Source of the DNA: Planctomycetota bacterium
Lineage (GTDB): Bacteria; Planctomycetota; Phycisphaerae; Sedimentisphaerales; Anaerobacaceae
Assembly (NCBI GenBank): GCA_019456195.1
Contig: VRUK01000002.1
Location: 1-64,000 of the forward strand
Direction of reading: 5' to 3'
DNA: 64,000 bases
Part shown: piece by piece, positions 24,207-60,762 of the stretch
How the letters are laid out: every line of letters begins with the position of its first letter
How positions within the stretch are numbered: position 1 is the stretch's first letter
Program-made: the position numbers and the translations under genes
Notes under the pieces: generated by a model
Databases searched by the model: none
Seen by the model: the letters and a program-made list of their open reading frames with translations, nothing else
What the model was told of the DNA's origin: nothing

Positions 24207-25679
24207 ATGAAGCAAGAAGAGGTTTCTAACGAGGCAAACAAGTTCGAGAAGCAAAGGCAGGAGAAACTGTCACGTATTAAAGAATCTGGAATTGATCCTT
24301 ACGGGGGCAGATATGAGGGAGCCGAGCCGGCCGAAGATGTCAAGCTGAGATTTAAGGACGGAGACGAGAGCCAGCAGGCCAAATGTGCCGGCAGGATTGT
24401 GCTGTTAAGGGACATTGGGAAGCTGATTTTTATAACTTTGCGCGACCGCAGCGGTACTATCCAGGTCGGATTGAGCAAAAAGCTTCTTAGTGAGCAGTGG
24501 TCGCTTGCGAAATTGCTGGATCTTGGTGACATAATCGGTGCGTCCGGCCAGTTGGGAAGGACCAGAACCGGTGAAATTACGATATGGGTTGACGATGTTG
24601 TTTTTCTAAGCAAGTGCCTGCTGCAGCCGCCAGAGAAATTTCACGGTCTGTCGGATATTGACCAGCGTTACAGGCAGAGATATGTGGATTTGTGGGCTAA
24701 TCCTGAAGTGATGGAGCGGTTCAAAAACCGCAGCGCAATCATCTATACAATTCGCGAGCTTCTCAAATCCAAAGGATTTTTGGAAGTCGAGACTCCGATG
24801 ATGCAGGCGATAGCCGGAGGAGCCGCGGCAAAGCCTTTCGTAACGCATCATAATAGCCTGGATATGGATTTGTTTTTGCGGATTTCGCCTGAACTGTTTC
24901 TAAAGAGACTGCTCGTTGGAGGAATGGAGAAAGTTTTTGAGGTAAATCGAAATTTCCGCAACGAAGGATTGAGCCGGCAGCACAATCCGGAATTTACAAT
25001 GCTTGAAGTGTATCAGGCCTACGGCGATTACAATGTAATGATGGGTTTGACCGAGGAGATTTTTGGGCTTTGTGTGGAGAAATACTGCCAGAGCGAACAG
25101 GTGCAGTTCGATGATATGACGATAGATTTTACCCGGCCGTGGCGTCGGGCCACATATTCGGAGCTGCTGAAAGAATACAGCGGCTGCGATATTGATGACA
25201 TCGAGGCTGTTCGGGCAAAAGCAAAACAGCTCGGACTTCAAGCGGATGTGGATGATGCGGTGGTTGTCAATGAAGTATTTGAGACCACTGTCGAGCACAA
25301 TTTGGTAGCCCCGACATTTGTGATAGATTATCCCGCGGTGCTGTGTCCTTTAGCCAAACGCAGAAAAGACAATCACAAATTTTCGGAGCGGTTTGAATTG
25401 TTTATCGCCCGGATGGAATTGGCGAATGCTTATACGGAGCTCAATGACCCTGCCGAGCAATATGAGAATTTCCGTACTCAGCTTCGCGGGCAGGAAGAAT
25501 CACTGACGAAGATGGACATGGACTATATCACGGCGTTGAAATACGGCATGCCTCCCGCCGGGGGTTTGGGTATTGGGATTGATAGATTGGTTATGGTGCT
25601 GACCGGTGTTGCGAGCATTCGTGACGTGGTGCTGTTTCCTCTTCTAAGGCCTAAATCACCAGATAGTAATAGCGGATAG
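24207..25679 (+). CDS. lysS: Lysyl-tRNA synthetase, class II
   Basis: Charges tRNA-Lys with lysine. 490 residues with an N-terminal OB-fold anticodon-binding domain (CAGRIVLLRDIGKLIF, then LRDRSGTIQVGL, residues about 60-150). The class II catalytic core follows: motif 1 region near VETPMMQ, motif 2 FRNEGLSRQHNPEFTMLE, and motif 3 GLGIGIDRLVMVLTG near the C-terminus. The ATG at 24207 is read despite a modest Shine-Dalgarno (AAGGAA 12 nt upstream). A palindromic repeat follows the stop codon. Confidence 0.95.
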   Translation: MKQEEVSNEANKFEKQRQEKLSRIKESGIDPYGGRYEGAEPAEDVKLRFKDGDESQQAKCAGRIVLLRDIGKLIFITLRDRSGTIQVGLSKKLLSEQWSLAKLLDLGDIIGASGQLGRTRTGEITIWVDDVVFLSKCLLQPPEKFHGLSDIDQRYRQRYVDLWANPEVMERFKNRSAIIYTIRELLKSKGFLEVETPMMQAIAGGAAAKPFVTHHNSLDMDLFLRISPELFLKRLLVGGMEKVFEVNRNFRNEGLSRQHNPEFTMLEVYQAYGDYNVMMGLTEEIFGLCVEKYCQSEQVQFDDMTIDFTRPWRRATYSELLKEYSGCDIDDIEAVRAKAKQLGLQADVDDAVVVNEVFETTVEHNLVAPTFVIDYPAVLCPLAKRRKDNHKFSERFELFIARMELANAYTELNDPAEQYENFRTQLRGQEESLTKMDMDYITALKYGMPPAGGLGIGIDRLVMVLTGVASIRDVVLFPLLRPKSPDSNSG

Positions 25680-25691
25680 CGGATGGGTTAT

Positions 25692-25716
25692 GGATTCCTG
25701 CTTGCGCAGGAATGAC
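25692..25716. repeat. Palindromic dispersed repeat (GGATTCC...GGAATGAC type)
   Basis: GGATTCCTGC, a short TTGC centre, then GCAGGAATGAC. The arms pair as ATTCCTGC with GCAGGAAT. The same family, with C for T in the arms, occurs inside pabB at 60469-60495. Here it sits 12 nt after the lysS stop and could act as a transcript-end hairpin. Confidence 0.7.
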
Positions 25717-25808
25717 AATTGATCGGTAACTGGTAACTAAGTTGCGTGTGAAAAGAAATTTAGTTTTTAGAGCTAGTATAACTTGTATCTTTAATTTATT
25801 ACGTTTCG

Positions 25809-59237: not shown

Positions 59238-59276
59238 ACGCAATACGCAATACGCATCACGCACGACGCATCACGC
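59238..59276. repeat. Short degenerate tandem repeat overlapping the pabB stop codon
   Basis: ACGCAATACGCAATACGC, then ATCACGCACGACGCATCACGC: units of about 7-8 nt of the type ACGCAAT/ACGCATC. The last codons of pabB (Ser-Val-Met-Arg-Arg-Ala-stop) lie inside it. Confidence 0.7.
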
Positions 59277-60762
59277 TTCTTATTCCTGCTAAAAGCGCTC
59301 TTGCTTTCGTGATAGTCTCGGCCCACTCGGCCCGGGGGTCTGAATCCGCTACTATTCCGCCGCCTGTTTGGGCAAAAGCCTTTCGCCCTGTGATAATAAT
59401 CGTTCGTATCCCAATATTCAAGCACGCACTGCCGTCAATGCCGATAAACCCGATACTCCCCGTATAAACACCTCTTGCGGTCGGCTCGGTCTCGTCGATG
59501 ATTTCCATCGAGCGGATTTTCGGTGCGCCCGTGATAGACCCCCCCGGAAACATAGCCTTCAAAATATCGCAGATTGTAATTTCACTGCGAAGCTCCCCGG
59601 CCACCGTAGCAACAGCGTGAAAAACCGTTGGGTAGCTTTCAATCGTCCTGGGCTGAGTTACTTTCCGTGTCCCCGGCTTGCAGATTTTAGCCACATCATT
59701 ACGCTCCAGATCGATTATCATATTAAGCTCGGCGCGTTCTTTTTCGCTGTAAAGCAGCTCATTGAAATTATTTGTATTTGTTTCTTTAATTTGCGGGTCT
59801 TCCCCGGAAGTCTCAATGATACGCCGTCGGGTGCCTTTTATCGGCTTGGTTCGGATAAAGCCGTCATTGATTGTGACAAACATCTCAGGAGAGGCGCTGA
59901 CTATATGAAAATTTCCGCCGTCGATATATGTAGCGTACCCGCTTGGATTATAATGATTTTGCCAGTGATAGAGATTTATCGCTTCGGCGTCGTATTCGCA
60001 TTCGAATCGCTGTGAAAAGTTAATCTGATAGACCTCGCCGTCATAGATATAGTCTTTTATTTTATCTATCGTCCGCAGATAGTACTCTTTATCCATATTG
60101 CAGCGAATTTGCGAAAAATCTATTCTTTCAAGGTCGGCCAGCTTCGGTTCCGAGATACGGATTGTTTGAGATTCTCTAACCAGCTCCTCCAGAATCGCAA
60201 ATTTGTCCTGAGCCCTTTCAGTCTCGCCCTGCAATTCCAGCGCGATTAACCAAAAAGTCCCTTCGATATGGTCGTAGGCAATGAGCCTGTCATAAAAACA
60301 AAGTCGAATCAGAGGCATTTTAAGGTCGTCTATGGTCGTTTCCGGGAGCTTTTCAATATATTTGCCGAGTTCGTAGCTGAAATATCCAATCCATCCCCCG
60401 CAAAACATCCCTGTAGGGGCAACCCCGTGTGGTTGCCCTAATCCCGTGTGGTTGCCCTTATCCTCTTTGTCATTCCCGCGAAAGCGGGAATCCAGTAATT
60501 TATATTTATTCAGGACTTCATACAGTTTTCCGAACGGGTCTTTTTGTCCGGTCTTAAATTCGAATATCTCTTTCGGCTCGGCCGCCCAGTAGCTGAATCT
60601 GTCCGCATCCGCCTTGGCCGGGTTGCCTCCGAGAATTGAGGCCGATTTTAGGTCTGCAAATCTTTCGCTCAAGGCCGGCAAATCTATGGATGTACTAATC
60701 TCTTTGCAGTGCACTTTGCAGAGAATATGATTATCCGTTTTGGCAACCGCCCCTGCTGTCAT
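59257..60762 (-). CDS. pabB: Aminodeoxychorismate synthase component I, carrying in-frame repeat insertions
   Basis: 501 residues. Converts chorismate plus ammonia (from PabA) to aminodeoxychorismate. The chorismate-binding domain fills the C-terminal half: YQINFSQRFE, SASPEMFV, TKPIKGTRRR, LNMIIDLERNDVAKIC, VFHAVATVAGEL, AMFPGGSITGAPKIRSMEIIDE, and AQTGGGIVADSDPRAEW. The TrpE homologues share these; PabB is chosen from the neighbour pabC. Residues about 89-118 are coded by two palindromic repeats and should form an extra loop. The last six codons come from a tandem repeat. ATGA overlap with the deoC stop. Confidence 0.88.
   Translation of the reverse strand: MTAGAVAKTDNHILCKVHCKEISTSIDLPALSERFADLKSASILGGNPAKADADRFSYWAAEPKEIFEFKTGQKDPFGKLYEVLNKYKLLDSRFRGNDKEDKGNHTGLGQPHGVAPTGMFCGGWIGYFSYELGKYIEKLPETTIDDLKMPLIRLCFYDRLIAYDHIEGTFWLIALELQGETERAQDKFAILEELVRESQTIRISEPKLADLERIDFSQIRCNMDKEYYLRTIDKIKDYIYDGEVYQINFSQRFECEYDAEAINLYHWQNHYNPSGYATYIDGGNFHIVSASPEMFVTINDGFIRTKPIKGTRRRIIETSGEDPQIKETNTNNFNELLYSEKERAELNMIIDLERNDVAKICKPGTRKVTQPRTIESYPTVFHAVATVAGELRSEITICDILKAMFPGGSITGAPKIRSMEIIDETEPTARGVYTGSIGFIGIDGSACLNIGIRTIIITGRKAFAQTGGGIVADSDPRAEWAETITKARALLAGIRSVMRRA
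60413..60495. repeat. Two palindromic repeat families inserted inside pabB
   Basis: First, GTAGGGGCAACCCCGTGTGG continuing as TTGCCC (60413-60438), whose arms GGGCAACC and GGTTGCCC pair; its right half CCCGTGTGGTTGCCC is repeated at 60443-60457. Second, GTCATTCCCGCG, AAAGCGGGAATCCAG (60469-60495), whose arms ATTCCCGC and GCGGGAAT pair; this family also lies after lysS at 25692. Together they keep the pabB frame open. Confidence 0.85.

Follow-up and report, generated by a model that had tools for sequence, protein, structure and literature searches.

The window analysed here is a 64,000-nucleotide stretch from a Planctomycetota bacterium whose genome (5.82 Mb, 217 contigs) is hereafter called the source genome. 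Among its genes is a pabB gene interrupted, without loss of frame, by two short palindromic repeats (Table 1). The gene product contains the Pfam domains Anth_synt_I_N (residues 54-170) and Chorismate_bind (residues 225-486). No curated PabB model was passed: the best NCBIfam matches, trpE_most (361.1 vs cut-off 517.7) and PabB-clade2 (321.9 vs 408.55), lie below their cut-offs, as does the curated pabB model (302.9 vs 328.4). We nevertheless use the name PabB because the adjoining frame encodes a class-IV aminotransferase which, from its sequence, we take to be PabC-like, and because a separate TrpE-like gene is present on contig C176 of the source genome. The nearest named records in the PabB comparison are metagenome bins of Planctomycetota / Phycisphaerae. 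Outside the loop discussed below, the two dN/dS estimates (0.062/0.370 and 0.071/0.448) both amount to about 0.16, and pabB is thus under purifying selection.

Table 1 Repeats and associated genes in the window
Feature	Position	Strand	Remarks
lysS open reading frame	24207-25679		
CGTC-1-type REP, ATTCCTGC sub-type	25691-25717	-	11 bp past the lysS stop codon
pabB (probable aminodeoxychorismate synthase component I)	59257-60762	-	uninterrupted 501-aa open frame; host gene of both elements
Repeat-derived PabB loop, residues 90-117	60412-60495	-	28 residues, spacer included
GTAG-type REP	60413-60438	+	GTAG tag, 8-bp stem GGGCAACC/GGTTGCCC, 6-nt loop CCGTGT
19-bp half-element, tandem pair	first copy 60424-60442, second copy 60443-60461		one base differs between copies
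CGTC-1-type REP	60468-60494	+	TGTC tag, 8-bp stem ATTCCCGC/GCGGGAAT, loop GAAA, tail CCA

The initial annotation of this DNA had placed both palindromes side by side within pabB, in frame and ahead of the conserved GGWIGYF stretch, and direct reading of the sequence together with the continuous open frame bears this out. On the minus strand, the first element is translated as GQPHGVAPT and the second as LDSRFRGND. The repeated half that had been noticed in the first element is the tandem unit of Table 1, the second copy of which yields GNHTGL. The window contains a single match to each of the two spaced palindrome patterns, whereas 100 dinucleotide shuffles contained no match to either. With its unpaired GTAG, 8-bp stem and 6-nt loop, the first element belongs to the GTAG superfamily of Di Nocera et al. 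(2013; PMC3733652), for which Table 1 of that paper specifies a hairpin of 5-13 bp in the stem and 2-20 nt in the loop, with GTAG left unpaired at one of its ends. Its stem GGGCAACC is placed by this superfamily definition, within which that paper distinguishes 24 families. The second element, and equally the copy beyond lysS, has the tag, the AT-initial 8-bp stem, the 4-nt loop and the CCA-like tail of CGTC family 1, for which the tag may be CGTC, TGTC or CCTC (PMC3733652). The lysS-side copy had been assigned to the same family as the second pabB element, correctly so, although it represents a compensated sub-type, with ATTCCTGC accompanied by GCAGGAAT, and differs from the pabB copy at 3 of 25 bases. 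The two elements had further been credited with adding about 30 residues to PabB; the repeat-derived stretch amounts to 28 residues, and the linker has gained a net 18 residues (32 vs the commonest repeat-free length of 14), fewer than that estimate.

In an AlphaFold2 model of the protein, which is weak overall (mean pLDDT 67.2) and good over most of residues 11-90, residues 92-113 form a coil with pLDDT under 50 between a helix (residues 76-86) and the strand (residues 123-129) that starts the GGW motif. The loop is thus predicted to be disordered and would presumably be exposed on the surface. The best PDB matches of the model are PabB and TrpE, and the best alignments with solved structures begin at F120, just past the loop.

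Both families proved to be dispersed. The GTAG element occurs at 25 places in the source genome as an exact match and gives 43 matches when up to 2 mismatches are allowed, with no match for the reversed-pattern control in either case; two of the sites appear on both strands, so that the number of sites is about 41. For the CGTC-1 element, 19 matches with up to 2 mismatches were obtained in the source genome (control 0), and it was matched in 25 of the 26 genomes searched (control 0); a looser pattern gave 79 places in the source genome vs 19 in its control. Most of the GTAG and CGTC copies sampled lie outside Pfam-supported genes. Open frames of at least 150 aa cover only 2 of the 25 exact GTAG sites, namely pabB and a frame of 279 aa that matches no Pfam family, and 2 of the 14 CGTC sites among the source-genome loci, namely pabB and a frame of 320 aa encoding a MauE domain, in which the element falls after the domain. 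Across the 26 genomes, 24 exact CGTC loci were collected, one of them from the source genome, and two lie inside Pfam-supported genes, dihydroorotate dehydrogenase and the pabB of G008; a frame covered the element in 8 of the 24, and 5 of these 8 frames were tested against Pfam. The full set comprised 30 CGTC loci, including 6 that lack an exact match and were left unclassified, among them the pabB of G024 (L137). The dihydroorotate dehydrogenase case (L129, positions 1501-1526, genome G006) reads DSRFRGNDK, in the same frame as in pabB.

A RAYT transposase that might match these repeats was also sought, and two genes above the cut-off were found in the source genome, each having imperfect GTAG sequence less than 400 bp away. 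The RAYT gene on contig C74 scores 99.5 bits against NF047646 (cut-off 80) and is preceded, about 121-181 bp upstream of its start codon, by a pair of GTAG elements with 1 mismatch and 4 mismatches, respectively. The second gene, on contig C171 (181 bits), has a GTAG copy with 2 mismatches at a distance of 395 bp, and a CGTC copy lies 541 bp from this same gene, the flanks scanned being those of 13 RAYT-like loci. By chance, with 41 sites, the expected number of GTAG sites at 400 bp or less from a given RAYT is about 0.01. The association is loose across the 26 genomes, 10 of which encode a RAYT above the cut-off: G001 and G024, as well as G007 with its ten GTAG matches, carry GTAG elements without a RAYT match, these being incomplete assemblies, and the GTAG pattern of the window was not found in G021 and G022, which possess strong RAYTs. 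Other repeats also accompany the two genes. One, beginning GGGTGGCAGCCACTG, lies on both sides of the C74 RAYT (L041, positions 1354-1368 and 2088-2102) and may be the terminal repeat of that RAYT in place of GTAG; a search of the window that allowed 2 mismatches gave no copy of it. Beside the C171 RAYT, a frame at about positions 1861-2283 of L157 translates tandem copies of IIGAIHRTLPHYWCDTSHPTSLLVR, which represents another repeat family.

We then compared the linker between the KY and GGW motifs of PabB across the family. Among the 89 family genomes searched, 77 yielded a pabB match and 74 were examined, the matches of G012, G043 and G051 stopping short of the linker. Linkers were extracted and scanned from 70 of the 74; visual inspection of G068 and G102 showed no repeat, and G006 and G044 gave no linker. 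The scan tolerated 5 mismatches (6 for NIEYR and 8 for a longer pattern) and matched 2 of 210 codon-shuffled control genes. Repeats were found at the linker before GGWIGYF in 17 of the 70 scanned genes, representing 11 of 39 genera (G000-G005, G008, G014, G017, G018, G024, G047, G054, G065, G083, G088 and G100). This count is that of the family census and not of the peptide-pattern comparison, in which one pattern was derived from the loop and so biased the result towards relatives that have it. Four kinds of repeat are involved, namely GTAG, CGTC-1 and two that encode EILRFAQND and NIEYR, respectively, the EILRFAQND-coding repeat also starting with TGTCATTC on the opposite strand. Several linkers contain more than one repeat: NIEYR, EILR, CGTC and EILR in G008, two GTAG elements in G083, and CGTC with EILR in G024 and G088, the CGTC copy of G088 being of the ATTCCTGC sub-type. 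Many linker copies match the repeat consensus with zero mismatches, and the CGTC, EILR and NIEYR repeats are each read there in a constant direction and frame, even though alternative frames are free of stops. The linker of G062 contains a long insert without repeat assignment.

Repeat-free linkers account for 49 of the 70 and are exactly 14 residues long in 33 cases, the others ranging from 11 to 19 residues. This length is strikingly constant despite the large repeat inserts at the same site. The copy-number search extended to the bearing genomes other than G047, G054, G065, G083, G088 and G100, and within this scope revealed further CGTC copies in G000, G002, G003, G004, G008, G018 and G024, and further EILR copies in G008, G017 and G024; NIEYR is rarer, with ten matches in G008 and two in G014. 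The initial annotation had considered that the loop might be an old protein feature, in which case relatives of different lineages should carry it with unrelated codons. No such loop was found among the linkers compared, in which other repeats or a short linker occupy the site, and the repeat-derived nature of the loop, as well as its absence or replacement in relatives, was upheld.

Differences are already apparent within a genus. The pabB of the window contains both GTAG and CGTC, whereas three members of the same genus (G002, G003 and G004) have CGTC only, and two have GTAG without CGTC, as a single element in G001 and with the doubled half, as in the window, in G005. Doubling of the half adds 19 bp, and the adjoining flank is one base shorter than in G001; the reading frame is therefore kept. 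In another genus, the linkers of G099 and G101 retain the length of the insert and, at 33 and 31 of 42 bases, respectively, agree with the GTAG copy that is still intact in G100 of the same genus; they represent decayed GTAG copies. The linker of G022 was likewise considered as a decayed GTAG copy; at 22 of 42 bases the match is not convincing, and this genome was counted neither as repeat-bearing nor as repeat-free. A PabB tree was constructed without the linker columns (48 rows, G005 being absent); it does not distinguish gains from losses. On this tree, possession of an insert of whatever kind (21 rows, including the doubtful G022, the decayed G099 and G101, the G062 insert and the different repeat of L113) entails 11 changes, and at least 7 gains or losses are forced by well-supported branches. 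For the individual repeats, the total and forced changes are 6 and 4 for CGTC, 5 and 4 for GTAG, 4 and 2 for EILR, and 3 and 1 for NIEYR. Collectively, the recurrence of four kinds of repeat at one PabB loop is well supported.

Other loops and other genes are not devoid of such inserts. In the lysS gene, used as a control, the same scan identified 1 of 79 loci, compared with 17 of 72 for pabB (Fisher test, 1.5e-5, for genomes that are not independent of one another and with incomplete sequence for some lysS loci). Inspection by eye, however, revealed additional repeat-like inserts in lysS, near residue 9 in 6 loci, near residues 52-53 in at least 4 and near residue 294 in at least 2, so that the contrast between the two genes is softer than the Fisher value implies. 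The lysS loci with repeat-like inserts are L268, L269, L283, L285, L295, L305, L307, L316, L320 and L321. Among 19 TrpE loci, one GTAG element is situated in the gene (L176) and one CGTC element seemingly before the start codon (L188). The element of L176, which is the TrpE of G024, is in frame in the N-terminal part and reads GDHTGSPLR. Within PabB itself, G103 has, ahead of the helix, an EILR-type element with the reverse reading direction. The outgroup protein L115 (G025) has two GTAG-like elements between its domains, with 4-5 mismatches, and its catalytic domain contains a CGTC element that matches exactly and is translated as CHSRESGNP. A further repeat-like insert is found at the linker itself in L113 (G031), outside the family. 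Given the inserts in other loops, in lysS and in TrpE, tolerance of such elements is general; pabB is not unique but is the strongest of the three genes examined.

The most probable interpretation, which we hold with good though not full confidence, is that known selfish REPs reside in pabB and that, as they keep the frame, a disordered surface loop mostly tolerates them. One GTAG-type and one CGTC-1-type REP would have landed in pabB in ancestors of the genus, the GTAG elements probably being copied by a RAYT transposase. Insertion would not have been aimed at pabB; instead, selection would purge gene-breaking copies and spare frame-keeping ones in disordered surface loops, and the KY-to-GGW loop would be such a tolerant place, so that unrelated repeats would have collected there again and again. 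Once resident, the repeats would become partly duplicated, might take part in recombination between alleles of neighbours, and could be lost or decay by point mutation, with the enzyme remaining under purifying selection throughout this turnover and the inserts presumably serving no function. Several observations count against this interpretation. A freely tolerant loop should show small indels, yet two-thirds of the repeat-free linkers share one length. Independent random insertion does not require the single orientation and frame of the CGTC, EILR and NIEYR copies, which descent or selection could explain. The loose co-occurrence of RAYTs and GTAG elements and the presence of repeat-like inserts in lysS and TrpE as well are further points of the same kind.

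Some of these patterns could be accommodated if insertions had been few and ancient, with numerous later losses as well as gene conversion and the transfer of alleles of pabB, a history that we regard as distinctly less probable yet worth serious consideration. The borders of the GTAG copy are common to G001, G005, G100 and G054, those flanking CGTC are common to the window, G002, G003 and G004, and the linker of the window resembles a mosaic of G003-type and G005-type linkers; even so, four repeat kinds at the site and the ATTCCTGC sub-type of G088 make several separate gains likely in any event. Such common borders may reflect descent, which weakens the case for a hot spot at the DNA level, where a target sequence or structure, or a resident REP, would attract further repeats. 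This possibility appears rather unlikely: the presence of several repeats per linker in G008, G083, G024, G088 and the window is what it would produce, but linkers with a single insertion exist, and in lysS and TrpE inserts occur at other loops.

Far less plausible is the proposal that PabB of this clade has long possessed the loop as a functional part, its likeness to repeats being secondary. Decayed GTAG-derived linkers do persist in genus g56, and the site has been reused in many genera; sisters, however, differ in repeat kind, length and sequence, most scanned linkers are repeat-free, and many copies are identical to the consensus. We rejected this proposal on the grounds that the kind of repeat in the loop changes between sisters. 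Equally improbable is the retention of the hairpins for regulating the stability or translation of pabB mRNA. The stretch 60405-60500 folds with -32.6 kcal/mol (z = -2.98), and none of 200 shuffles was as stable; strong folding is nonetheless to be expected of any palindrome, some sisters lack the element or have decayed ones, and no match to Rfam at the gathering score was obtained in the window.

The suggestion in the initial annotation that the repeats could mark a new mobile palindrome system was not sustained and has been rejected, since both superfamilies, a proposed link between GTAG repeats and RAYTs, and in-frame copies within genes were already in print in 2013 (PMC3733652), and the in-frame palindromes of Rickettsia are older still. 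The GTAG repeats described in PMC3733652 resemble those studied here in their tag, 8-bp stem, short loop, dispersal, proximity to RAYTs, in-frame copies and occurrence in Planctomycetes, but some of those families comprise thousands of copies, against about 41 sites here. That paper reports RAYTs next to GTAG repeats and not next to CGTC repeats, the mobilization of GTAG elements by RAYTs being put forward as a hypothesis. The CGTC-1 repeats are alike in the TGTC variant of the tag, the AT-initial 8-bp stem, the 4-nt loop and the CCA tail, and are equated in PMC3733652 with dRS3 of Neisseria and RPE-6 of Rickettsia conorii; the results of that paper list five phyla without Planctomycetes for CGTC, whereas in its abstract Planctomycetes are mentioned in connection with both superfamilies.

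Rickettsia likewise has palindromic repeats that are translated as part of conserved enzymes without loss of frame (PMC2229807); there, a guanylate kinase with a translated palindrome is active but has a changed substrate affinity; the Rickettsia elements measure 105-146 bp (PMC2229807), a size range well above the 26-27 bp of the present repeats. Rickettsia are obligate intracellular bacteria, whereas the relatives considered here are environmental planctomycete bins. For inserts in linkers and loops, possible neutrality has been suggested (PMC3733652). A parallel in the same paper is recB of Xanthomonas, in which different REPs occupy about one site in related species, as in pabB; the pabB linker differs in having four repeat kinds across 11 genera at one site. 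In the open-licence literature searched on palindromes or REPs in genes and on CGTC repeats in Planctomycetota, no title or abstract on repeats in pabB was found.

In-frame insertion of REPs is known, and in the earlier example that was found of a site shared by different REPs, two species are involved; what is new here is comparative, a single enzyme loop for which fresh, doubled, mixed, absent and decayed stages are represented in related genomes. Whether such inserts are neutral or useful thus becomes testable on a single loop. A bolder proposal, to which we give some credence while considering it more doubtful than not, is that the helix-to-strand loop of PabB is a genuine recurrent capture site, which acquires unrelated mobile palindromes, exchanges them and domesticates them as loop peptide throughout the family, at a rate far above that of other genes; if true, it would provide a natural series for watching selfish DNA become protein. 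For annotation purposes, the repeats explain the stretches 'SRLRGND', 'GNHTGLPL' and 'EILRFAQND' in planctomycete proteins.
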